Source of the DNA: Leptolyngbya sp. PCC 6406
GTDB lineage: Bacteria > Cyanobacteriota > Cyanobacteriia > Phormidesmidales > Phormidesmidaceae
Reading direction: 5' to 3'
DNA length: 64,000 nt
Assembly: GCF_000332095.2 (NCBI RefSeq)
Contig: NZ_KI913949.1
Location: 1,539,286-1,603,285 of the forward strand
Made by a program: the position numbers and the translations under genes. The notes beneath the pieces were generated by a model, which was given only the letters and a program-made list of their open reading frames with translations, had not been told where the DNA came from and searched no databases. Positions 47,944 to 62,169 of this stretch are shown in pieces (within the stretch, counting starts at the first letter, position 1; every line of letters begins with the position of its first letter).

Positions 47944-50341
47944 GTTGGGTAGGAGAGAAAGACATCGCTGCCCCTCTCCCCCCTAAGAACCGGACTTGAT
48001 AGTTTCCTCTCATCCGGATCAAGCCCTCTGTGAGCCAACAGGTGTTTTGGCCTGACCATGTACCTGCCGATGACAGGCCTGATGGAGCAATTGTAGGTTC
48101 TCGTCCTGACTCAAACCACCCGCCTGGACAGGAGAGCGGTCATGAGCATGGACTTCCTCGCCATTGACGAGCCCTTCACCACAGACAGGGCACCGCCATT
48201 GCTGACTTTGGGCCAGTCGATAATACGTGGAGCCTCGACTCCAGTATCGCTTGCCATGCCGCTGTTGACGGTGTTGCCAGTAGTCGTGCAGGTCAGGGTC
48301 ATCCGGAGAGGCGGTGCCTTTGACTTTGACATGCCGCTCAATCGTTAAGGAATCGAGCCGAAACAATGAGATGGACTTGTCGCCGTCGGTTGGCGTGTGA
48401 ACCGTGGCCGCAAACACCCAGTGCCGATAGCCAAAGGCTTTGAAATAGCGCTTAGCCACCCAGGTTTTGGATTTGTTGGGATGCCGTCTGAGGCACCACC
48501 GCCAAATCGCCCGCCAGAGTTGGTCATCCATGGCATTGAAGACCCGCTTACTCACGACATGACGGTAGTAGCGTCCCCAGCCCTGCAAAATCGGGTTGAG
48601 GAAACGGATGACCAGGGCCGGTGAGGTGTGCAGGTGCGCTTTGAGCCAGGCTCGTAGCGCTTGCAGTTTGGCATTCACCTTCGCCGCTTGGGGCGTAATC
48701 AAGCACTTCCCTTGTCGGGACTGGATATGGAAGCCCAAGAAATCAAAGCCTTCGTCTTTGTGGACGATGCGCGTTTTCTCAGGATGGAGCATCAGCCCCC
48801 GCTGCTGGAGCCAGTCTTGCAGGATAGGGACTACGGCTTCAAGCGCTTCGCGACTGCGGGCCGTAACGAGGAAGTCGTCGGCATAGCGGATGAACCCGTA
48901 GCGGGTAACCTGGCGGTATCCGACTTGCCCCTCCCGACCCGCTTGGGTACGAGGAAAGGCTTTGCGGTCCCGGAACTGACTCAAGAGCTCGCCCATGCCA
49001 TCGAGGGCAATATTGGCGAGGAGCGGGGAGATGACGCCGCCTTGCGGGGTGCCCGCATCGGTCGTGTGAAACACCTCCGCTTCCATATAGCCTGCCTTCA
49101 ACCATTGCCGAATCCATTCGCGACCGGGACAGAGCCCAATGGCATCGAGAATGAAGTCATGGCTGATGGTATCAAACGCACTTTTGATATCGGCATCAAG
49201 AATCCAACTGTCATGGCCTTGGTTGAGGCGAATCCACGTTTGGTCGATAGCGTCCTGGGCACTGCGTCCGGGCCGAAACCCATAGCTATGTGCCTCAAAG
49301 CGAGCTTCCCAACTGGGTTCCAGGGCATTCTTGACCAGGCTTTGGGCCACTCGGTCAAGGACGCAAGGGATCCCCAGGGGACGCTGTTTACCCTTAGCCT
49401 TGGGAATATATATCCGTCGGGCTGGACGCACCTGACCGGGCGCATAGGCCGACATCTGATGGACCAGGTGCACCCGCTGGGCGGGTGTTAGGGCGGTATA
49501 ACCATCAATGCCCGCCGTCTTGCGTCCGGCATTCAGTTGGGTGACTCGTCGCACCGACCACAACAGGTTGGCATGACTCCGTAGCATCAGTTTCATCAGG
49601 CTTCTCACCCGATTCCACTGCTGCTGTTGGCTCGCCCGGTAAATTCGCCGTCTCAGGTTCCGCAACCGCTTGTTGACCGACTTCCAGACGATGCTGTGCC
49701 AGTCCACTTGCGCTGTCGTAGTTCCGATGTCGTTGCCGACTCTATCTTTCACTCACGATTAGGTTCCTTTACAGTGGTTTATCGGTGAAGACCCACTGGA
49801 AGTCTGCGACCTTTCAGTCCGGGGCAAAGCTTGAACCCCTATCTGCGGCATTACCCACAGCCTTCGCTTTCTCCAGTTTCCTTTACCCGCTAGGGAGTTC
49901 TGCCGCCTTTACAGACTGGCTTACTGAGGCTATCGACCTGGCCTCAGACCCTATCGGGCTTACCGTGTTCCCTACCTGTGACCTGCGACTGTGGGGGGTT
50001 CCATCTATATGCCGGTGGGAGTTCGGTTCCTGCACGGTCAACTCGTAGACTTTGACCGCCCACCCACTTACCTTTTGGTCAGAGTGTTTCAGCCTCTTTC
50101 ACTCGGCTACTGTGACGACACTTACGATGATTCACTCGCGTTAACCCTTCACAGTCTTCGTCTTGCACTCTCTCCAGATGGAGGCTGCCAGAGGTCGTGC
50201 TTGCGTGCCTTGCATTCCATTGCGTTCATTACTTACTAGCAACGTAGGCAGGGTCATTGACCCCGTTACGGGACGATGGGGAGCAAGAATTCCCCAGAGA
50301 GGACGGCCTCTCAGTCAGCAGGTACAGCTTTCACGTCGCAC
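47944..50341 (-). mobile_element. Group II intron with reverse-transcriptase ORF, about 2.4 kb
   Basis: The 5' end is GTGCGAC (reverse complement of 50335-50341), the group II consensus. The 3' end is placed at 47944 (..CCTACCCAAC), which keeps the host Uma2 frame. A domain V hairpin lies at 47987-48020 on the minus strand: GATCCGGATGAGAG, GAAA, CTATCAAGTCCGGTTC, followed by a domain VI stem with GGGAGAG/CTCTCC. The usual AGC triad of domain V reads ATC here. The reverse transcriptase fills domain IV and its stop TGA touches domain V. Confidence 0.85.
48019..49752 (-). CDS. ltrA: Group II intron-encoded reverse transcriptase/maturase with HNH endonuclease
   Basis: 577 residues, intact. Reverse transcriptase blocks: RRIYIPKAKGKQRPLGIP, HSYGFRPGRSAQDA, DADIKSAFDTISH, GTPQGGVISPLLANI and the catalytic RYADDFLV. 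A maturase (X) domain (about 395-445) and a C-terminal HNH module CPVCGEGLVNGEEVHAHD..LLHQACHRQVH complete it. QGGVISP marks it as group II type, not a diversity-generating retroelement enzyme. It splices and mobilises the intron that contains it. The plus strand is also open here (48661-49491), which is only a shadow. Confidence 0.95.
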   Translation of the reverse strand: MKDRVGNDIGTTTAQVDWHSIVWKSVNKRLRNLRRRIYRASQQQQWNRVRSLMKLMLRSHANLLWSVRRVTQLNAGRKTAGIDGYTALTPAQRVHLVHQMSAYAPGQVRPARRIYIPKAKGKQRPLGIPCVLDRVAQSLVKNALEPSWEARFEAHSYGFRPGRSAQDAIDQTWIRLNQGHDSWILDADIKSAFDTISHDFILDAIGLCPGREWIRQWLKAGYMEAEVFHTTDAGTPQGGVISPLLANIALDGMGELLSQFRDRKAFPRTQAGREGQVGYRQVTRYGFIRYADDFLVTARSREALEAVVPILQDWLQQRGLMLHPEKTRIVHKDEGFDFLGFHIQSRQGKCLITPQAAKVNAKLQALRAWLKAHLHTSPALVIRFLNPILQGWGRYYRHVVSKRVFNAMDDQLWRAIWRWCLRRHPNKSKTWVAKRYFKAFGYRHWVFAATVHTPTDGDKSISLFRLDSLTIERHVKVKGTASPDDPDLHDYWQHRQQRHGKRYWSRGSTYYRLAQSQQWRCPVCGEGLVNGEEVHAHDRSPVQAGGLSQDENLQLLHQACHRQVHGQAKTPVGSQRA

Positions 50342-51320: not shown

Positions 51321-52642
51321 CTTAACGGGTGACAAGGGCACTCAACGTCATACGGTACAGGGTTTTGAGATAATGGAGGGGACAAAAAAAAGGGAGCCTC
51401 AGTACAGCTCCCCCAACCAAATATGTTCCCTACATTCTACCAAACTACCCTTCTCACCCATCTCAGTGAAAAGCAGTACTTGACCTTCCAGTTACTGTTG
51501 TTATTGCTACAAGCGCATCGCCAAGTCAAACTCTCCGTCTTAGCCAGCGTCTTTCCTCAGCCCATTCAGTATCAAAGTCGCAAACGGAACTTACAACGCT
51601 TTTTAGCCTTACCCCAACTCACGCTCAAGGTGCTGTGGTTTCCGCTGCTCAAATATTGGATCCGCCAAGTGGAAACGGGACGGGGCTTGAACCGTGACCA
51701 ACGCCGTCGTCTGAGAACGCTCAAACACCATAAACACGGCTATTGGATTCTGGCAATGGACCGCACGGAATGGAAAGGGCGAAATATCTTCATGGTCAGC
51801 GTGGTGTGGGGGACTCATGCTTTACCCGTCTATTGGGAGCGTTTAGGGCGGGCGGGTACGAGTGACCTGAAAACGCAACGGCGACTGCTGAAAGCGGCCC
51901 TGTCCTTGTTTAAGTCCTACCCGGTTCTACTGCTGGGTGACCGGGAGTTCCATAGCCCTAAACTGGCGGACTGGTTGGAGCAGCGCGGGGTGTCCTTTGC
52001 ACTCCGACAGAAAAAGGACTTCCATTTCAAGACCGATACCGATACCGACTATCAAGTCCTCAAAAACGCTGGCTTCAAACCGGGCCAGTCTCGATTTTAT
52101 GAGGGAGTTTTGTGCAACAAGGGCGATGGTATGGGCCCGTTTAATTTAGCGGTGTATTGGAAGCGCTCCTATCGCCAGAAGGGGCCGAAGGAACCGTGGT
52201 ATATCCTGACTAATCTGCCCACCTTGAAGCAAGCCTTAGCAGTCTATCGATGTCGCTGGGGCATTGAACAGCTCTTCAAAGACTTTAAGACTGGGGGCTA
52301 TAACTTGGAGGATACCAAGGTCAATGACACCCGATTCTTAGCCTTAGTTTTACTGATCGCTCTGGCTTACAGTTTGGCGACTCTCCACGGCCAGTGGATG
52401 CAGGAGGCCAAGCTAGCTCAGTATGCCGGACGTCTCCAAGAGCACCAAGATAAGGCTCCACGGCACAGTGACTTTAGCTTCAGTCTCTATGGTCAACGAT
52501 GGCTCTATGCCATGGATTTATGGGCCGATTGGGCGCTCAAGCTGGTAGCCCTCAAACCCCATAAACACCGCTATTTTCAGCGAGGTTTTCACGCCCTATC
52601 CCTTATCCAGCAAGCTCTCTAGGGGGGTTGTCACCCTGTAAG
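51321..52642 (+). mobile_element. IS4-family insertion sequence, 1322 bp, with 9-bp target duplication
   Basis: The ends are CTTAACGGGTGACAA at 51321 and, reverse complemented at 52642, CTTACAGGGTGACAA (13 of 15). It is flanked by GCCAAGAAC at 51312-51320 and 52643-52651, a perfect 9-bp duplication. One intact transposase. All features point to a recent insertion. Confidence 0.93.
51423..52622 (+). CDS. IS4-family transposase
   Basis: 399 residues. DDE residues in ILAMDRTEWKG (Asp), VLLLGDREFHS (Asp) and the YREK box YRCRWGIEQLFKDFKTGGY, which carries Tyr, Arg, Glu and Lys at the family spacing. N-terminal helical DNA-binding region with YQSRKRNLQRFLALP. Intact and in frame with the element ends 100 nt upstream and 20 nt downstream. 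Confidence 0.95.
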   Translation: MFPTFYQTTLLTHLSEKQYLTFQLLLLLLQAHRQVKLSVLASVFPQPIQYQSRKRNLQRFLALPQLTLKVLWFPLLKYWIRQVETGRGLNRDQRRRLRTLKHHKHGYWILAMDRTEWKGRNIFMVSVVWGTHALPVYWERLGRAGTSDLKTQRRLLKAALSLFKSYPVLLLGDREFHSPKLADWLEQRGVSFALRQKKDFHFKTDTDTDYQVLKNAGFKPGQSRFYEGVLCNKGDGMGPFNLAVYWKRSYRQKGPKEPWYILTNLPTLKQALAVYRCRWGIEQLFKDFKTGGYNLEDTKVNDTRFLALVLLIALAYSLATLHGQWMQEAKLAQYAGRLQEHQDKAPRHSDFSFSLYGQRWLYAMDLWADWALKLVALKPHKHRYFQRGFHALSLIQQAL

Positions 52643-52935: not shown

Positions 52936-53196
52936 GTGTATTCTGGCTCTTGGGGCAGGCCGGGTAAACGCGGCGGTTCCTGGAACAACAATGCTAGGAA
53001 TTGCCGTTCTGCCTTCCGCAACAACAACAATCCGCGCGAATCCAACAACAACATTGGGTTTCGAGTGGTTTGCGTTGCCCCCAGCACTCTTCTGGATCAG
53101 AGCTGGCAGGTGGGAATCTGTCGGGCGTGTTTTGAGGAGTCCAGACCTGCTCCAGCGATATCTGCGGGTATCCGAAAATCAACCGGGGTCGGTTAG
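52936..53196 (+). pseudogene. FGE/C-type-lectin-fold C-terminal fragment, Asn-codon-rich (DGR-template-like)
   Basis: The frame reads RGGSWNNNARNCRSAFRN, then NNNPRESNNNIGFRVVCVAP, the conserved C-terminus of formylglycine-generating-enzyme (SUMF1/EgtB) family proteins. Upstream homology is absent, so it is a fragment. Ten of the Asn positions are AAC or AAT, arranged in runs of three or four, as in template repeats of diversity-generating retroelements whose targets have this fold. The frame ends at TAG 53194-53196. No retroelement-type reverse transcriptase is visible nearby; the one at 48019 is of group II type. Confidence 0.6.
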
Positions 53197-53245
53197 CGTG
53201 GTAGGGAAACCGAAGCGTTGACTGACCCCTCTCAGCTTTGTCGCC

Positions 53246-53537
53246 ATGGCTAGCCTCGTTTTCAAGCCTGAAACCAAGACCGCCCGTTACTTCACCGAGC
53301 AATTAAGTGATGAAGTGAGTCTAGACATGGTATGGTTTCGGTGCCCGGAGGGGAGTTTGTCATGGGCTTCGCCGATCAAGACTCCCAGGGATATAACGAT
53401 GAACGTCCCCAGCATCCGGTGACTGTGCCCAGCTTTTTTATGGGGCGCTACCCTGTCACAGTCGAAACCTGGCCACTGGGTACACGATTAACCCGCAGAT
53501 CCCTAAGTGCGCCCCGTGTGCAGGCTCATAGGAGTTA
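53246..53537 (+). pseudogene. FGE-sulfatase-type N-terminal fragment, frameshifted
   Basis: ATG 53246 begins MASLVFKPETKTARYFTEQL, then SDEVSLDM. A tandem duplication ATGGT-ATGGT at 53327-53336 shifts the frame. The second frame gives MVSVPGGEFVMGFADQDSQG, then YNDERPQHPVTVPSFFMG, RYPVTVETW, the start of the FGE domain. Homology ends at about 53472, where the domain should continue for another 200 residues. So the gene is both frameshifted and truncated. It is convergent with the conflict operon and ends at its last gene. Confidence 0.75.
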
Positions 53538-56156
53538 ATGTCCAGATTGCCAAGGCCATCTGGGCTTGGCAACTGGGGTTGTGGTCAATCTGGTAGCAGT
53601 ATCAAAATCAGCTTTGGCCAACCTTTGCTGGCCTAGGCTGTCATAGGCGTAGGCCCGCTGACGATAGAATTCCGGATTTTTGCTGTCAAGGGCAATGGCT
53701 TGAGTCAGGGCGTCGATCGCTGCTGGATAATCTCTTAAATGAAAATGGGCACGGCCACTATCAAAATAGGCGTCGGCCTGATAGGTCTCTTGATTAGAGG
53801 CGTACTGAATCGCATATTGATAGTCCGCGATCGCGGCTGCAAAGTAGCGCCGCTCAAAATGGGCCTTACCCCGACGGTAGTAGGCAGGGCCATACTGGGG
53901 ATGCAGATCGATTGCCTGGGTCAAGTCCGAGATCGCGACTTCCCTATCCCCTTGCTCAATCTTGAGAAGCCCCCGCTCGTAGTACATCACATGGTTATCA
54001 GCATCGCGCCTAATGGCAGAATTGAGGTCAGCAATAGCTCCCTCGTAGTATCCCAACTGTTTCTTCACCAAGGCCCGCTGATAATAGGCAAAAATAGACT
54101 CCGATTCAATCTCTAGAATTACATCCAGCAACTCTAGGGAGGCCTGAAATTGCTTCCGATCGTATAGTCTTTGCGCTTTTGTAATCTGTTCATAAATTTT
54201 CCTGGATATAAGGTGATAAGCCAGTCTGATGAACCATAAATCAGAAACTTTAGCCCTCAAAGGTCGATCATCTTGCATCTTAAAATACCATTTCCACCAG
54301 CAAGCTAGGAGAGTCGTACGCTCTAGGCTCTGAATGACTTCCGCTTCTATGCGTTGGATATCTATCTCGTTCAGATTCCAGGAGTTAGCAATTTCCTCTA
54401 GAAACTTGCGGTTAGCAGCATTGATCGAACCATCTTGTAAGACTTGCGCTCGCAGAATGTTTTCATACCGTTGATATTGGTCAACGTTTTGTTGAGTTGA
54501 AAACAAGATTTCTTCTTCGATTGAGATTATTTCGACTTCACTCAATCCCAGTTGCTTAGCTTTGATTTTCAGGTATATTTGACCGGCTGAACCCCTATTG
54601 TCGTGATACTCGCTGGCTAGTGCACGGTAGACTTGTATCGGGTCAATAGTTTTGACCTTGGATAGTCTAATATCCGTGCCGAGACCCTTGAGTGGATTAA
54701 TCGGAATTATCTGTGGAGTTATGGACCTATCCATGCCTCTAATAACAGGATTGGCCTGTAATTTTTGACTGATATACTCATGAATTTCCGCGAAGGAAAT
54801 GTACCCGTCTTGGTCGATATCTGCTTCGCCCGTGTTAATGCCTCTCACCAGATAGTGGGTGTATAATGACAGTCCTGATGGCTCCTCCTCGGGCTCCAAA
54901 GAAACATGTGCAAGGGAGTATTCGATAGGACTACAGGATGTTAGGACGATATGGCCCTTTGCTTCTAATTTTTGCTGAAGATCTAAAGACATATCTGCTT
55001 TGAAGAAGGATTGATTAATGGCACCGCTGAAGCAACAGTCCAGGATAATAACTAATCCGCCGATTCTGATGTGTTGAAGAATCTCATAAATAAAGTCGAA
55101 AGATACTGCCGTAGAGCGCATCCAGCGGTTATTGGAATCCTTGCGCGTGCTGGAGGTCGCTAGGTAAATTTTATTGGTTAGGTCAGTCTTGAGGCCATAT
55201 CCAGAAAAGTACAAGACACCTAAATCAGCTTTTCTGATGTTGAGCAAAAAAGACTCGATTTCTGACTGCATGGTTTGCAGGTCAGGATTGGATAGGAGCT
55301 TAACATCGTCAAATCCCCCTAACTCTGGATCCTCTAGGACTTGCTTCAGTGCCTGGATGTCATTTAAGGCTGAAGGTAACGAAGCAAAGTCCGGAGTGTA
55401 TTCACTGACACCAATTAAGAGTGCAACCTTTAGCTGTCGTGCCACGGGCTCCGGTAGCCTCAGGGTTTGCCCCGGCAGCACCTCATAGCTTTGCGCGAGA
55501 TGCTCAGGGGCAATATCCCCTTCCCCCACCACCACCGCCCGCACCAGAGCCGCATAGTCTAACAGTGCTGGATAGTCCGCGAGTTGCGGCGCTAGCTCCA
55601 GGGCGATCTCCGCCAGTCGGGCCAGTTCCGCCTTCCCCACCAAGTTGTCCCCTAGACGTTCTACCGTGGTGGTGCCGATTTGCAACTGGGCCGCCATCTG
55701 ACTCACCGCCTCCCGGCGCTGCTCCTCATTCAAATAGACCATCGCCGCCCACTGTTGGGCTTCCAATTCCTTTTCATTAGCCTGGGGGTTGGTTTCTGCC
55801 AGGTACCTGACATAGCTAATCAGCAGCTTGGCCACCTGTTCTATCCGTTCCTGGCCATACTGGCGCTTCAATTCATCAAATAGATAAGCCCGAACATCCG
55901 TATCTAGGGCATAGAGTTCATAGCCCACGGGCTGACACAGATCTGAGAGTAGCAAATCCACCTCTGCCACCCACGGCACCCCCTGGTCCCGCAGAAACTC
56001 ATTGCGAAGGTAGTTGACCAGTTCCGGCGTGAGTACTAGGGGCAGAGCCGCATGGCAGGCGAGCGCTCGGTAAGCAGGCTGGAACCGCCGCACAAAACGC
56101 CGTACCGTTTGTGCCGCCTGAGCTTGGCGTTGTTCTAAGGACAGCGAATCAGTCAT
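53535..56156 (-). CDS. Caspase-fold / EF-hand / TPR protein (last gene of the conflict operon)
   Basis: 873 residues from ATG 56156, which overlaps the VWA stop as ATGA. Residues 1-190 are a helical region (RALACHAALPLVLTPELVNY, DLLLSDLCQPVGYELYALD) shared with cyanobacterial FGE and WD40 proteins near MoxR-VWA genes. The caspase-like domain (about 240-480) has VALLIGVSEYTP, VLYFSGYGLKTD, where Tyr320 replaces the catalytic His, and VIILDCCFSGA with the cysteine kept. An EF-hand-type loop DIDQDGYISFAE lies at 446-457. A linker (500-640) and about six TPRs (650-865) follow. Probably a pseudo-caspase sensor or scaffold, or an effector using another His. Confidence 0.88.
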   Translation of the reverse strand: MTDSLSLEQRQAQAAQTVRRFVRRFQPAYRALACHAALPLVLTPELVNYLRNEFLRDQGVPWVAEVDLLLSDLCQPVGYELYALDTDVRAYLFDELKRQYGQERIEQVAKLLISYVRYLAETNPQANEKELEAQQWAAMVYLNEEQRREAVSQMAAQLQIGTTTVERLGDNLVGKAELARLAEIALELAPQLADYPALLDYAALVRAVVVGEGDIAPEHLAQSYEVLPGQTLRLPEPVARQLKVALLIGVSEYTPDFASLPSALNDIQALKQVLEDPELGGFDDVKLLSNPDLQTMQSEIESFLLNIRKADLGVLYFSGYGLKTDLTNKIYLATSSTRKDSNNRWMRSTAVSFDFIYEILQHIRIGGLVIILDCCFSGAINQSFFKADMSLDLQQKLEAKGHIVLTSCSPIEYSLAHVSLEPEEEPSGLSLYTHYLVRGINTGEADIDQDGYISFAEIHEYISQKLQANPVIRGMDRSITPQIIPINPLKGLGTDIRLSKVKTIDPIQVYRALASEYHDNRGSAGQIYLKIKAKQLGLSEVEIISIEEEILFSTQQNVDQYQRYENILRAQVLQDGSINAANRKFLEEIANSWNLNEIDIQRIEAEVIQSLERTTLLACWWKWYFKMQDDRPLRAKVSDLWFIRLAYHLISRKIYEQITKAQRLYDRKQFQASLELLDVILEIESESIFAYYQRALVKKQLGYYEGAIADLNSAIRRDADNHVMYYERGLLKIEQGDREVAISDLTQAIDLHPQYGPAYYRRGKAHFERRYFAAAIADYQYAIQYASNQETYQADAYFDSGRAHFHLRDYPAAIDALTQAIALDSKNPEFYRQRAYAYDSLGQQRLAKADFDTATRLTTTPVAKPRWPWQSGH

Positions 56157-57238
56157 AACCACGGAGAATGCAAGTGCTGGAGGGGTTGACCCCGGACAAT
56201 GTCGATCCCATTGCTGAGGCCATCCTCATCCATCTGAAACATCGGCACAATATTGGCAATGATATCGGCAGAAGTACCTTCCCACCGCTCCGTAGGCATA
56301 GGATTTAACCAGGCCATCAGGTTGGTCACCTGCCGCAGTTTCAACAGAAAGCCCGTCGTAGACTGAATGCGAGAGAGTTGCCGATAGCCCCGCGCTGCCC
56401 CCCCATCACTGACGATGAGCACGCTGGTGTCGCTATCGATCGCTGCCAGCACCTTGCCCAGGGCGATGGGCTGGGTTAAAAAAGCATCTTGATACAGAAA
56501 GTCCCCTGGCTGGTTGTGGAAGTAGTAGGGGACGAACTGCCCCTCTGACAAAGTGCCCTCGCTACTGGCGGTCTCCACAAGGTCACGGGTGAAGCGATGG
56601 AAGGGCATCATGGAACCATTTTGGTCAATGAATAGCACTAGCCGCGCCTGGTTTTGCTCCCGACGCCGCAACACCGGAGCCAGGTAGAAGCCATTGCGGG
56701 CCGCTGATTGCACCGTTGCCTCCACATCTAAGATTGTGGCGACTCCCATGGCTACAGGCCGCCGCAAATATCGCCAGGTATAGCTCATGGACCGCCGCGA
56801 CACGGGCCAATAGGCGGCTAAATCGGTGGGGTCTTCTACCTCCGCTGGGGTGAATGGTGCCCGCACTGGCTGCACCGCCACCTCCGTTGCCGTCTGCACC
56901 ACTGTTGGATCGGGTTGCGGGCGGGACAGCGGCACTGATTCCGGTGATAGCGGGGGTACGGGGGGGGGGTGTCTTGGGATTTCCCCCGGAAGTGGGAGGG
57001 CTGGATCTGGAGCTAATATCGCCAACACCTCCTCCCAGATAGGGTCAAATTGACTGCGGTGGGATCTGGAACTGCACCAGAGCAGCTTCAGTGCCGATTT
57101 GAGGGCATCCGGTTGCGTCACCCGTTGCCCCCTGACCAGTGCCAAGGCGGACAGGTACTCTTGACCGCCCAAATCAAAGCCACTGCGGCGAAACCGCAGC
57201 AGGGCTTGGGTCACCAGTGCTGACAAATCTAAACTCAT
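56153..57238 (-). CDS. VWA-type (MIDAS) protein of the conflict operon
   Basis: 361 residues. An N-terminal helical domain (ALVTQALLRFRRSGFDLGGQEY) is followed by a Pro-rich linker (about 85-130). The von Willebrand A fold shows RLVLFIDQNGSMMPFHRF (a D-x-N-G-S MIDAS variant) and SVLIVSDGGAARGYR (distal Asp). C-terminal TNLMAWLNPMPTERWEGTSA is typical of VWA proteins that partner MoxR ATPases. Start and stop overlap both neighbours by 4 nt (ATGA), so it is translationally coupled to the MoxR gene upstream and the caspase-fold gene downstream. Confidence 0.88.
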   Translation of the reverse strand: MSLDLSALVTQALLRFRRSGFDLGGQEYLSALALVRGQRVTQPDALKSALKLLWCSSRSHRSQFDPIWEEVLAILAPDPALPLPGEIPRHPPPVPPLSPESVPLSRPQPDPTVVQTATEVAVQPVRAPFTPAEVEDPTDLAAYWPVSRRSMSYTWRYLRRPVAMGVATILDVEATVQSAARNGFYLAPVLRRREQNQARLVLFIDQNGSMMPFHRFTRDLVETASSEGTLSEGQFVPYYFHNQPGDFLYQDAFLTQPIALGKVLAAIDSDTSVLIVSDGGAARGYRQLSRIQSTTGFLLKLRQVTNLMAWLNPMPTERWEGTSADIIANIVPMFQMDEDGLSNGIDIVRGQPLQHLHSPWL

Positions 57239-58167
57239 GTCACCGCAGGTCGTGCCGCATTGCGCCAGTCAGCTCTGAGCTTAAAGAGCAACTCGCGGTA
57301 GGGCACCGGGTTGGCATCGGCCAGAGTCTGAGGGGAGAAAGGTTGCGACCCAAACTGATTCAAAGCCCGGAGCCAATCTAGAAATTCGCTGGTACCGGGC
57401 TTCTTGAACAGGCCATCTCGGTTGCGAATCTGCAAAAATCGCTCCGTGGCCACCTCCGCCAACTCTTCCGAGAGATCCCCCAGCACCGCCTGGTGGGCAG
57501 CGGCAATGTCTTGTAACCGCTCTGTCGGGAACTCCACAAAGTAGTACAAACAGCGCCGCAGAAAGGGGGCGGGTAGATTGCCCTTTTCCTTATTGCTGGT
57601 AATGATAACAATGGGCGGGTGCTTGGCCCGTTTCACTTCCCCGGTTTCGCGAATGGTGAAGGACCAGGGTTCATCCAGCACCGCCAGCAAGTCATTGGGA
57701 AAGTCCAGATCCGCTTTGTCAATTTCATCAATCAGCACCACCGCTGGACAATTCTCACACTCAAAGGCTTTGCCTAGGGCTTTCAATTCCAGATAGTTAT
57801 TGGGATTGCTGGGGTCAATGGAGCGCTGGGACTGGTCCGTTTGGCCGTCTAGCCCTTTCACCAAGTTGGCATCATGGAGCCGCAGGATGGTGTCAAATTC
57901 ATAGAGCCCTTCCTGGTATTTGGTGGTGGAGCGCACATCCCAGCGATAGAAGGGCAATCCCAGTTCATGGGCCACCGCCACCGCCAGTCGAGTTTTGCCA
58001 CAGCCCGCTTCCCCCTCTAGCAGCAGGGGCCGCTGGAGAAAAATGGCCAGATTAACCGCCGTAATCAATTCCTCCGAGGCCAGGTAGGGCTCGGGCCGCT
58101 GGGGCGACTCGGAATGGGCATCGGCGGGCCGATGGGCGGGGTTGCCGGTAAACGTGAGGGGGGCCAT
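57235..58167 (-). CDS. MoxR-type AAA+ ATPase of the conflict operon
   Basis: 310 residues. Walker A is EGEAGCGKTRLAVAVA, Walker B VVLIDEIDKADLDFPNDLL, sensor 1 IVIITSNKEKGNLP, and the Arg finger PAPFLRRCLYYF. The N-terminal YLASEELITAVNLAIFLQRPLLL is the usual MoxR entry (cited as YLASEELITAVNLAIF). All ATPase motifs are intact, unlike the preceding protein. It presumably loads or remodels the VWA protein whose gene overlaps its stop. It starts 2 nt after the previous stop. Confidence 0.93.
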   Translation of the reverse strand: MAPLTFTGNPAHRPADAHSESPQRPEPYLASEELITAVNLAIFLQRPLLLEGEAGCGKTRLAVAVAHELGLPFYRWDVRSTTKYQEGLYEFDTILRLHDANLVKGLDGQTDQSQRSIDPSNPNNYLELKALGKAFECENCPAVVLIDEIDKADLDFPNDLLAVLDEPWSFTIRETGEVKRAKHPPIVIITSNKEKGNLPAPFLRRCLYYFVEFPTERLQDIAAAHQAVLGDLSEELAEVATERFLQIRNRDGLFKKPGTSEFLDWLRALNQFGSQPFSPQTLADANPVPYRELLFKLRADWRNAARPAVT

Positions 58168-58169
58168 AC

Positions 58170-59195
58170 TTACTCCGTCTGGAATGCCAGTAACTCATCA
58201 AAATACTCTTGCAGGGCGGTGCGGGTTAAGGCAGGGTCGCCATTGCTCTCTGTATAAATCAGCTCAGCCCATTGGTTCCGTTGGTGTTTAGGAAGCTGAA
58301 AGTGATCCTGGAGCCAGAGGCGAATGTCTTGCTCTGTCCAGCGTTCTAGGGGCAATTCTAAGATGCTGCGACTGTCAAACTCGTCTACGGTGCAAAAGCA
58401 AGCAGATTCGCGGCAGTCGGGGGTTAACTCACGGTTAGCCACAATCACAAAAATCACCCGAGCGTACCAATCGTCCAGAACGGACGAGAGTTGCTGCACC
58501 AGCGATCGCCAAAAGGTTTCCAGCAGCCATTCCATAAACGCCTTTTGGTTACCGCTGCCCACCGCATCCCAGTTGGTGAGGTGAATGACCACGGTGGAAC
58601 TCTCCCGCAGGGAGGCACAGAGGGTTTGGGCAACAGTGGCCATGTCTGCCTCTGGGTCGCCACTGGGTTCAACCCCCAGGTACTTACCCAACAGTTTCAA
58701 AAAGGTGCGATCGTCCGTGCCACCCACCGCAGGGGAGAAGGTGATTTTGTACCAGAGGGGCGTTGTCACCCCATTTCTGAGCACGTCATCCAGTGCCCGC
58801 AGCAACAAGTCTCCAGCCATGGCGCGACTCTGCTGCATGAGCATCAGCGCTCCCCCTCCATCGAGTTGAAGGGTATCGAGAACCTGTTCGATTACTTTTC
58901 GTGCTTTGCGAAAGTCAATTCTGGGCAGGGCCTCGTCAAAATCCAGGGTCTGGCGGTTGAGGTCTTGGCCCTGTTTCTCCAGAGCTTTGAGTTGCAGTTC
59001 TTTGGCTTTGTACTTCCCTAGGAGGGTATCTCTCTGAGCTTCTAGTTTTACCTTCGCCACGGGATCGTTTGTGGTGCGGGCTGTCTCTGCACAGACACTA
59101 TGCTCAAGCATCAGGGCGGCCATGTCGCGCTCTAATTCCTTTTTCTGGAGTGCGACACTTGTCAAATCAGGTTGCGGGTTGCGATCGTTCACCAT
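58170..59195 (-). CDS. Inactive-STAND-like protein with N-terminal helical adaptor
   Basis: 341 residues from ATG 59195; a TTG at 59207 is possible. Residues 1-75 are a coiled coil with HSVCAETARTTNDPVAKVKL, similar to the end of the CHAT protein. Residues 85-335 look like a STAND/NACHT-type NTPase by segment order: ALMLMQQSRAMAGDLLLRALDD where the P-loop should be (no GK[ST]), TVVIHLTNWDAVGSG as Walker-B-like, VIFVIVANRE, and a winged-helix-like tail with LPLERWTEQDIRLWLQDHF. It fits the 'iSTAND' type proposed for conflict systems, a signalling platform that does not hydrolyse ATP. The assignment rests on pattern, not alignment. Confidence 0.72.
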   Translation of the reverse strand: MVNDRNPQPDLTSVALQKKELERDMAALMLEHSVCAETARTTNDPVAKVKLEAQRDTLLGKYKAKELQLKALEKQGQDLNRQTLDFDEALPRIDFRKARKVIEQVLDTLQLDGGGALMLMQQSRAMAGDLLLRALDDVLRNGVTTPLWYKITFSPAVGGTDDRTFLKLLGKYLGVEPSGDPEADMATVAQTLCASLRESSTVVIHLTNWDAVGSGNQKAFMEWLLETFWRSLVQQLSSVLDDWYARVIFVIVANRELTPDCRESACFCTVDEFDSRSILELPLERWTEQDIRLWLQDHFQLPKHQRNQWAELIYTESNGDPALTRTALQEYFDELLAFQTE

Positions 59196-59207
59196 CTCGC
59201 CTGTCAA

Positions 59208-60725
59208 CTACGCCCCACTTCCAGATTGCAGGGCTTCAATGCGCTCACCAATTCTAGAGATATCCGCCAATATTTTTTGTCCTTTGGTTTGCAGCTTAAT
59301 TTTGCTATCGGGATCTAGGGTGGAGCGGGCCGCTTCTTGGCAGGCTTGATATTCCGCTTGCAGTTGTACCAGTTGCGCTTGGAGGTCTTGCAGCTCTAGC
59401 TGTGCGGCTAGGCCCAGTGGTTGCGGGCGAGATCGCGCTGCTTCTGGTTTGGGTGGTGCAGAGGGCTGGGGTTCCGGTTTCACAAACAGCTCGCCGTGGT
59501 GATTTTCCTGCCATCGCAGGTACAACACCGGACGGTACCACTGATTCCCCTCCGGATCCATCCAGGTGCGCCCCGCCTGCACCGCCGCCAGAGCCGACTG
59601 CCCCCGCCCCAACACCCGATAAAACTGCTCCGCAAAGTCCTGCGCCGCCCGCACCTGCACGCTGTACTGCATCGCCACCACCGCCGGAATCTGGGCATCG
59701 ATCAACTGCTGGGCAGTGCCATTAAACACCGACTTCCCCGTCACCGCCATCCCCGACTGACAGGCACTCAACACCACCAGGGCAATGCCCTGATCCGCCA
59801 CCAAAGCCGCCAACCTGCGCGCACTGACAAACTCCGCCTTGCCCTGCTCATCCTCAAAGGCCAGAAACCCCTGGGCCTCCGGTAACGGCGCACCACAACG
59901 CTGACAGGTTTCCGCCTTCGTGCTGGCTTGCAAATGGCCACACACCTGACAGCGCTTGCCAAAGATGCCGTGGCCATCAAAGTGAACCACTTGCGGTGGG
60001 GTGGCCGATTCCGTCAGGTACGCACTCAGCCCGCGCCAGGTGGGGGTAGGCAACTTTTCGAGGGAAACGGATTCAGCCTTAGCAATGCCAGTTTGGATCG
60101 CCTGGGGCTCCCCATCGGACAAGTGGCCCACATCCCTAGCCCGTGGGGAAACCAACAAGACGCGCAGGCGATCGCCCAAGGGCTGCCGGGGAGGCACCGC
60201 ATCATAGGCAATGTAGCGAGACAGTTGCACCCGTCGGTTTAGGAGAAATCGAGTCCCGTCGTGGATCAGTTCCCAAGGGTAATCCGCAAGGCGAGATCGC
60301 TTTGCCGCATCCGCCGCAAACTTCAGCCTGAGATGCAAAGTCGCGCTGGCATTTTCGGCTTGGCGCAGGGCAGATTGAAACGCTTGCCCGACGGGCTGAT
60401 TGGGCGGCAATAGCGCCTGAAAGAGGGCTTGCCCAATCCTGGCCAAATAGTCCGGTGCAAAACTGGGATGTCCTGCGGACAAAATCCCAGCCCGCTTCAT
60501 CCAATCTTGCTCACCGAGCTGGGGAAAGTGTTCAGATTTGAACCCCCCTGAACTTTCCAACCCCTTAATCACCGTCGTCCGCCAATCCTGTTCACCGTCC
60601 CAAAAGGGCAAGGCCGATTCAGACTCCGCATCACTGCCCAAGGTCGATGCAGTGACGATCGCCTTGAATCGCAGCGAATCCAGCGGCGTCAAATACAGCT
60701 CAAACAAATGGGGAGAACTGGCCAT
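59208..60725 (-). CDS. CHAT-domain protease with zinc ribbon and C-terminal adaptor
   Basis: 505 residues from ATG 60725. An N-terminal beta-sandwich-like region (HLFELYLTPLDSLRFKAIV) is followed by the CHAT domain: WELIHDGTRFLLNRR, catalytic His252 in VVHFDGHGIFG and Cys322 in VVLSACQSGMAV, both present. Between them is an inserted zinc ribbon with CQVCG (259-262) and CQRCG (274-277). The C-terminal 70 residues are a coiled coil containing ACQEAARSTLDPDSKIKL, resembling the N-terminus of the next protein. It is the likely effector peptidase of the operon. Starts 4 nt after the trypco2-like gene stops. Confidence 0.92.
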   Translation of the reverse strand: MASSPHLFELYLTPLDSLRFKAIVTASTLGSDAESESALPFWDGEQDWRTTVIKGLESSGGFKSEHFPQLGEQDWMKRAGILSAGHPSFAPDYLARIGQALFQALLPPNQPVGQAFQSALRQAENASATLHLRLKFAADAAKRSRLADYPWELIHDGTRFLLNRRVQLSRYIAYDAVPPRQPLGDRLRVLLVSPRARDVGHLSDGEPQAIQTGIAKAESVSLEKLPTPTWRGLSAYLTESATPPQVVHFDGHGIFGKRCQVCGHLQASTKAETCQRCGAPLPEAQGFLAFEDEQGKAEFVSARRLAALVADQGIALVVLSACQSGMAVTGKSVFNGTAQQLIDAQIPAVVAMQYSVQVRAAQDFAEQFYRVLGRGQSALAAVQAGRTWMDPEGNQWYRPVLYLRWQENHHGELFVKPEPQPSAPPKPEAARSRPQPLGLAAQLELQDLQAQLVQLQAEYQACQEAARSTLDPDSKIKLQTKGQKILADISRIGERIEALQSGSGA

Positions 60726-60729
60726 CGGG

Positions 60730-61110
60730 CTAGAAGCGATCGGCTAGGTTGTCCTCTGCCGCCCCGTCTTTCGTCAGGGCCTCTAAGCTGCGCGCGATCG
60801 CAGGCATGACCTGCTCCCCGCGAACATCCTTAAACCACTCCACCAGTTGGGCCTTGTCAAACAGCGGTGACAAAGACACCTTCACCGTATGGGTTTTCTC
60901 GTGGCTGAGGGTTCCGCCCGCTTCCCCCCCACCAATCGCGACCACATCAATTTTGATTCCCGCGTTGCCTTCCCGCTTGGCGGTCACCTGTAATTCCAGT
61001 TCCACCGAGTCCACAAAAAAGATGGGTGGCTCACCCTCCTTGTCTGGGGGCGTCAGCAGCTCCTTTTTGACCTGGTTGATGAGTTCAGACAGCCCAATGG
61101 GTTGAGTCAT
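60730..61110 (-). CDS. Trypsin-co-occurring domain 2 (trypco2)-like protein
   Basis: 126 residues. The start IGLSELINQVKKELLTPPDK and the beta-rich PIFFVDSVELELQVTAKREGN, GIKIDVVAIGGGE and THTVKVSLSPLF pattern match the trypco2 family, which occurs beside trypsin-like or CHAT peptidases in bacterial conflict systems. A helical tail (QVMPAIARSLEAL) follows. It is the first gene of the six-gene operon. Its molecular role is unknown; the family is thought to associate with the peptidase effector. Confidence 0.85.
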   Translation of the reverse strand: MTQPIGLSELINQVKKELLTPPDKEGEPPIFFVDSVELELQVTAKREGNAGIKIDVVAIGGGEAGGTLSHEKTHTVKVSLSPLFDKAQLVEWFKDVRGEQVMPAIARSLEALTKDGAAEDNLADRF

Positions 61111-61296: not shown

Positions 61297-62169
61297 TTAC
61301 CCCGCCAGCCGTCCCCAGATCCGGGCTACTTCCGCCAGCAGGGTTTGAAAAGTTTCCCGGAAGGCCCGGTGTTCTGCTTGATTGAGGGCGAAATCGCGAT
61401 CAGCCCTTTCCCGGTCACGCTCTGCCTGCTCCTGGCTTGCCCGCAAGGCTTCCATAAAAGCTAGATGTTCTGCTTCATTGCGATCGCGATCGCGATCAGC
61501 CCTTTCCCGGTCACGCTCTGCCTGCTCCTGGCTTGCCCGCAAGGCTTCCATAAAAGCTAGATGTTCTGCTTCATTGCGATCGCGATCGCGATCAGCCCTT
61601 TCCCGGTCACGCTCTGCCTGCTCCTGGCTTGCCCGCAAGGCTTCCATAAAAGCTAGATGTTCTGCTTCATTGCGATCGCGATCGCGGTCAGCCTGTTCTC
61701 GGTCTGTCTGCAAGGATTCTAGAAAAGCCTGGTGCTCTGCTTCATTGAGGGCGCGATCGCGGTCAGCCTGTTCTCGGTCTGTCTGCAAGGATTCTAGAAA
61801 AGCCTGGTGCTCTGCTTCATTGAGGGCGCGATCGCGGTCAGCCCGTTCCCGATCGCGGTCAGCCCTTTGGCGATCCGCCCTAGCATCCGCCAGTAGGTTC
61901 TCAAACCGCTGGTTTGCTTCCTGCTGTTCCCGCCTGAATTCTGCTTGGCGCTGCCTGATCTCCCCCTGTTCTTCGGCCATAGTGGTGATCATCCCCACCA
62001 AGTCGGTCACACTAGCCCGTAGCTCCTGATTGCTCTGGGTAATTTGTTCACCCTGTTGCGTTACAGACTGCCTTAGCTCAGAAATCTGTCTGCCGTTTTC
62101 CCGCACCGCCAGTAGCGTCACTTCGGCCAAAGTTTCCAAACGGTCGAGCCGTGTCTCATTCGTCGCCAT
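61297..62169 (-). CDS. Tandem-repeat coiled-coil protein
   Basis: 290 residues, almost wholly helical and highly charged. N-terminal part RLDRLETLAEVTLLAVRENG and a Gln-rich coil resemble small cyanobacterial coiled-coil proteins. Residues 110-260 are tandem repeats: two 25-residue units (ALNEAEHQAFLESLQTDREQ) and three 32-residue units (RNEAEHLAFMEALRASQEQA). The Arg-Asp runs are encoded by overlapping HIP1 octamers. No enzymatic motif; a structural or scaffolding role is inferred. A strong terminator follows. Confidence 0.8.
   Translation of the reverse strand: MATNETRLDRLETLAEVTLLAVRENGRQISELRQSVTQQGEQITQSNQELRASVTDLVGMITTMAEEQGEIRQRQAEFRREQQEANQRFENLLADARADRQRADRDRERADRDRALNEAEHQAFLESLQTDREQADRDRALNEAEHQAFLESLQTDREQADRDRDRNEAEHLAFMEALRASQEQAERDRERADRDRDRNEAEHLAFMEALRASQEQAERDRERADRDRDRNEAEHLAFMEALRASQEQAERDRERADRDFALNQAEHRAFRETFQTLLAEVARIWGRLAG
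61401..61688. repeat. Tandem repeat, 3 x 96 bp, inside the coiled-coil gene
   Basis: Units begin at 61401, 61497 and 61593 with CAGCCCTTTCCCGGTCACGC and are almost identical; each unit joins the next through GCGATCGCGATCGCGATC, three overlapping HIP1 octamers. Two related 75-bp units follow at 61689-61838. Confidence 0.92.
61689..61838. repeat. Tandem repeat, 2 x 75 bp, inside the coiled-coil gene
   Basis: Units begin at 61689 and 61764 with CAGCCTGTTCTCGGTCTG; they are essentially identical, keep the reading frame (25 codons each) and end in a HIP1 octamer GCGATCGC. Confidence 0.9.

Follow-up and report, generated by a model that had tools for sequence, protein, structure and literature searches.

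Does an Asn-rich stretch that encodes an FGE-type motif, beside a conflict operon of Leptolyngbya sp. PCC 6406, represent the template of a diversity-generating retroelement (DGR) and, if so, what has become of the rest of that element? We addressed this question in a window, that is, a continuous stretch of 64,000 nucleotides that corresponds to C1:1539286-1603285 of the genome (G000; 5.78 Mb, 3 contigs). The interpretation that we advance, and that we hold to be very probable, is that the segment represents a template RNA gene, orphaned from a DGR that once diversified the FGE sensors of the adjacent vWA-MoxR operon. The features of the locus are compiled in Table 1.

Table 1. Features of the orphan template and the adjoining conflict operon (positions are those of the window).
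Feature	Position	Strand	Basis or remarks
IS4-type DDE transposase	51423..52622	+	Pfam DDE_Tnp_1; second copy at L013
DGR template repeat (TR), orphan	52969..53080	+	encodes RGGSWNNNARNCRSAFRNNNNPRESNNNIGFRVV
Structured RNA, putative 3' part of DGR RNA, spacer-like	53085..53228	+	covariation, profile model, weak RF02921 match
5' stub of DGR target gene (FGE-sulfatase N-terminus, ortholog of G050 target 3)	53247..53459	+	frameshifted, truncated
875-aa protein: target-1 N-domain, caspase (Peptidase_C14), TPR	53535..56162	-	Pfam; 78% identity to L065 target 1
vWA (VWA_CoxE) protein of conflict operon	56153..57238	-	Pfam; ortholog G050:C429:16066-17166
MoxR-like AAA ATPase	57235..58167	-	Pfam AAA, AAA_5; 87% identity to G050
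EAD9-like + iSTAND protein	58170..59207	-	Pfam
CHAT peptidase + EAD9	59208..60725	-	Pfam
Trypco2 adaptor	60730..61110	-	Pfam

A template repeat outside any gene

The plus-strand frame through positions 52936-53196 reads ..GKRGGSWNNNARNCRSAFRNNNNPRESNNNIGFRVVCVAPS.., and its core contains 11 Asn codons, every one of them AAC or AAT; the Asn-rich frame with an FGE motif that was described in the earlier note is therefore real. The feature extends beyond this interval: conserved RNA continues to 53228, and the stub of a target gene to approximately 53459. At the level of sequence comparison, the likeness of the window TR to two other templates is far above chance. Identity to the TR on contig C3 of the same genome is 83% over 158 bp and 78% over 271 bp (E ~1e-57), and the window TR plus the RNA that follows it is 87% identical over 274 bp to its equivalent in a genome of the same genus, G050. 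Both of these TRs are proven as templates by their A-specific VRs (see below). The window TR is homologous to them, lies outside any gene, and is succeeded by a conserved RNA and then by a target gene: this is the arrangement of a relic DGR template.

The earlier note had left a choice between an abandoned template and an undiversified target tail, and the homology to TRs with A-specific VRs upholds the first of these. According to the second, an FGE gene that is ordinary or undiversified would end in this segment, which would be Asn-rich by chance or an unmutated VR, and it is true that an FGE C-terminal motif is encoded in frame. However, just 19 codons are open 5' of RGGSW, at the start of RGGSWNNNARNCRSAFRNNNNPRESNNNIGFRVV, and no FGE body lies upstream; an FGE gene therefore does not end here. 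Moreover, structured RNA follows directly, and the order of TR, RNA and target is the same as in G050 and on C3. In the 11 FGE tails that a motif scan recovered from this genome, the corresponding stretch holds 0-4 Asn, as against 11 and 12 in the two templates. With the gene body missing upstream and the RNA present downstream, we rejected an ordinary FGE tail; this origin is highly improbable.

A covarying RNA follows the template repeat

The 144 nt of RNA behind the TR are predicted to form three main hairpins plus a short inner hairpin. Across an alignment of 21 sequences, 97.1% of cells pair, and both sides have changed in 21 of the 27 pairs (9.4 in shuffles); pairing falls to 23-45% in slid versions of the structure. 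The window copy keeps 27/27 pairs and reaches 136.4 bits under a model that was built without it. On the same scale, copies included in the model score 139-142 bits, two non-included copies (L162 and L084) score 134.5 and 127.8 bits, and those from RT-less loci in which the TR is damaged or VR-like reach 96-113 bits.

A 23-base pattern taken from the RNA occurs in 70 stretches of public genomes, nearly all of them from Cyanobacteria and a few from sulfur Gammaproteobacteria. An Asn-rich TR precedes most of these, and a DGR-RT match lies within the stretch in 52, which supports the proposal that this RNA is the 3' part of the DGR RNA. Studied DGRs have a spacer, of which the post-TR RNA would be the analogue.

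We also considered membership of the Rfam family RT-14 (RF02921), the model of which aligns with window positions 53085-53228 at full length (1-144; 34.5 bits, E 0.0074-0.0019), the first hairpin and the long last hairpin being in corresponding places. Since this score is below the gathering score of 48.1 bits, and the C3 and G050 copies are unreported at E values up to 1, membership of RT-14 is not established.

An intact counterpart in the same genus

We surveyed 65 genomes of the order, and found TR-like DNA in 33 of them. The closest copy among these relatives is that of G050, in which a complete target 3 follows the TR, Avd and RT lie to its left on the opposite strand, and there are two further FGE targets. 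The gene order in G050 is Trypco2, CHAT, iSTAND, MoxR, vWA, target 1, target 2, RT plus Avd (in reverse), TR-RNA and target 3. Between the G050 TR and its three VRs, 9, 14 and 10 of 28 A positions are changed, and none of 74 non-A positions. The window TR, for its part, differs from the G050 TR at 1/27 A positions and 6/75 non-A positions. The ortholog of the window vWA gene (Table 1) is 5.7 kb from the G050 TR on the same contig. Because the operon ortholog thus shares one locus with an intact DGR, the earlier note was right to link the template to the neighbouring conflict operon.

In a working state such as that of G050, the DGR RT, acting with Avd, would copy the TR RNA into cDNA and randomise adenines in the process, and this cDNA would replace the 3' end (the VR) of each of three FGE target genes.

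Loss of parts and a domain exchange at the window locus

Relative to G050, the window locus is without Avd, target 2 and an RT that carries the [LIV]GxxxSQ motif. The target-3 stub and the TR-RNA are directly behind the 875-aa gene, inverted relative to the operon. We identified the stub by local alignment to L065:10204-10394 and by tblastn to FGE residues 31-96: compared with G050, it carries a net frameshift near 53336, after which it is cut short. Approximately 350 bp to the left of the TR, at the place that Avd and RT occupy in G050, is an IS4-type transposase, a candidate for the agent of the rearrangement. The window does encode an RT at 48019-49752, which we rejected as a DGR RT: it is group II intron-like, with no DGR motif in its RT domain. 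A truncated copy of this RT is found at C1:4806417, beside another copy of the window-type IS4 transposase.

The operon itself has the composition of a vWA-MoxR ternary system, with MoxR, vWA, CHAT, Trypco2, iSTAND and caspase in one minus-strand gene run. No VMAP domain emerged from the Pfam scan of this operon; only a subset of cyanobacterial loci possess VMAP (PMC10907252). Beside the operon, positions 61297-62169 encode a coiled-coil-like protein with several near-identical ERADRDRNEAEHLAFMEALRASQEQ repeats.

Another difference from G050 concerns target 1. The N-terminal ~245 residues of the 875-aa protein are the target-1 N-domain (78% identity over residues 1-258; G050, L065), and behind it are caspase and TPR domains, where G050 target 1 has an FGE domain with a VR. 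In a class-wide sample, FGE is in the same ORF as the N-domain at 18 of 30 loci, and so the caspase-TPR exchange in the window departs from the usual architecture. The combination of this N-domain with a caspase is not unique to the window: a weak caspase match comes after the same N-domain in L191 (G264).

The complete ancestor of the window locus, which is not seen in this strain, we infer from G050. From that state a rearrangement, probably IS-mediated, would have stripped the locus of its RT and Avd genes, of target 2, and of the portion of target 1 that held the FGE domain and VR. What remained of target 1, its N-domain, would have been joined in the same rearrangement to a caspase-TPR module that is fixed; target 3 would have been cut short, and the TR piece would have come to lie in inverted orientation. 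The sequences themselves show the identity of the template, its intact ortholog, the missing parts, the exchanged domain and the structure of the RNA; the succession of the events, their agent, and the present inactivity of the template are likewise matters that we infer.

A second DGR in the same genome

The earlier note had proposed a genome-wide search for A-specific variants, a DGR RT and Avd. The last two are present, as an RT with IGNLTSQ and a bAvd, at a locus on contig C3 (L029) in which the TR is accompanied by target 1 (861 aa, FGE), bAvd (PF22296), the DGR RT (full motif, GLPIGNLTSQ) and target 2 (278 aa, FGE). This RT is the sole carrier of the DGR motif, which is absent from the RT domains of the other RVT_1 matches in the genome, and no second bAvd was found there. 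The variants were found as well: the C3 TR differs from each of VR1 and VR2 at 14/29 A positions and at 0/83 non-A positions (Fisher p 3e-10), which reads as a textbook DGR signature. However, they belong to the C3 template and not to that of the window, which we discarded as the template of these VRs in view of its 16-17 non-A mismatches to VR1 and VR2. The window template is therefore without a surviving target here, and nowhere in the genome did we find a VR that matches it at non-A sites.

The C3 RT is itself split, by an insert (L029:11350-11815) that is flanked on both sides by CCCTGCTG, as 8-bp repeats. A 121-bp stretch of this insert exists in 13 identical copies in the genome, this site included, which indicates that the element moved recently. 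The insert has inverted ends, TAAGCCTTCAGGGG, and part of it reads N.

Age of the loss

How long ago, then, was the window template orphaned? The operon genes of the window and of G050 differ at 47-60% of their 4-fold sites, compared with 15% of sites in the TR plus RNA; the coding genes that neighbour the window TR are 71-79% identical to G050 in nucleotides. When the changes in the TR plus RNA are polarised with C3, G003 and G039, 16 fall on the branch that leads to the window and 18 on that of G050, with 8 left unresolved. That the window copy displays no accelerated change, its pairs being intact, would be surprising for a template that is long dead. Such low divergence implies that the template was constrained for most of its history, and hence either that its loss is recent or that the RNA is still used.

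Use of the RNA could take the form of a working template that is employed in trans by a DGR RT elsewhere (for example, the C3 RT when uninterrupted) and kept by selection. At 85% identity, the window TR plus RNA is indeed better conserved with respect to G050 than are the adjoining coding genes, with no excess on the window branch and every one of the 27 pairs preserved; furthermore, trans action has been reported in Thiohalocapsa (PMC10907252), and other cyanobacterial contigs contain TR-RNA units without an RT in the stretch examined. On the other hand, none of the VRs found in the genome matches the window TR (those of C3, and others, differ from it at many non-A sites), and, its own target is a frameshifted stub, the C3 RT is split, and a recent loss accounts equally well for the conservation of TR and RNA. 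We judge such trans use to be unlikely. Support for trans templates might be sought in three RT-less loci (L076, L080 and L082), but we rejected them as such: the TR-like copies there are either damaged or VRs, and their fit to their neighbours is poor. A broader version, in which the RT-less TR-RNA is a functional, selected trans template, one of an RT-free cyanobacterial class, and the caspase-TPR fusion reflects switching between hypervariable and fixed sensors in such operons, seems to us just as doubtful. Recent loss is favoured by the comparison of non-A sites, at which the window TR finds no match among the 11 FGE tails examined in this genome, and a recently orphaned template is our best reading of the locus.

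Other DGR traces in this genome and in relatives

Two FGE VRs on contig C2 (C2:61633-61758 and C2:63686-63808; L032) fit the TR of a genome from a different genus, G027, at 75/76 non-A positions, with 15-17 of 26 A positions changed; a TR of the G027 type was not found in this genome, which suggests that these VRs are transferred or orphaned targets. Two further FGE tails, at C1:1406650-1406763 (L034) and C1:1867864-1867977 (L031), fit the TR of G007 at 67-68 of 73 non-A positions and are traces of yet another DGR lineage; the L034 tail belongs to an ORF that also has a caspase match. The post-TR RNA has left partial remnants at C1:2728145-2728235 (L083; 57 bits) and C3:13293-13344 (L027; 40 bits), which are additional DGR fossils in the same genome.

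Among relatives, the conserved RNA is positioned directly 3' of a target-like VR in L082:7143-7413 (G055) and L162:11950-12198 (G033), as though a TR and a target gene had been fused, or the RNA had been acquired by a VR. Five loci (L092, L124, L143, L150 and L152) contain an Asn-rich TR plus RNA, with at least 3 kb on both sides and no DGR RT match; these are candidate RT-less templates.

Comparison with known systems

Degenerate DGR loci, in which RT, TR or targets are missing or pseudogenised, have been described in Thiohalocapsa PB-PSB1 (Dore et al. 2024, PMC10907252), together with IS/MITE damage, trans activity and several DGR loci per genome. In that organism vWA-MoxR ternary conflict systems are DGR targets, and the same study names cyanobacterial clade 5E DGRs as diversifiers of the sensors of such systems (PMC10907252). 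The window locus is alike in its missing parts, its link to an IS, the several DGR loci in its genome and its vWA-MoxR association, and is a further, well-documented case of this kind. It is unlike Thiohalocapsa PB-PSB1 in that a template with an intact RNA survives, and in that the target-1 sensor was exchanged for caspase-TPR.

Cyanobacterial DGRs (Vallota-Eastman et al. 2020, PMC7517822; for Nostoc punctiforme, PMC12691664) have CLec/FGE targets, a CHAT-MoxR-vWA neighbourhood and a non-coding TR, the RNA of which is expressed in Nostoc punctiforme, with flanks that are predicted to be structured (PMC12691664). The window locus shares the FGE-type target, the neighbourhood and the non-coding TR; those DGRs are complete, whereas it is without RT and Avd. 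In the open-access papers that we consulted, we found no precedent for a locus that keeps an intact orphan template RNA and has lost its hypervariable sensor through domain exchange.

The window thus illustrates clearly how hypermutation is lost from a DGR-driven conflict operon of which the same genus still has an intact counterpart: the template and its RNA are retained, and a fixed domain has taken the place of the diversified sensor. With the pair formed by this genome and G050, the loss of a DGR becomes datable and testable. In addition, the strongly covarying post-TR RNA can serve as a marker with which to find templates, be they live, relic or RT-less, that are overlooked by surveys based on the RT.
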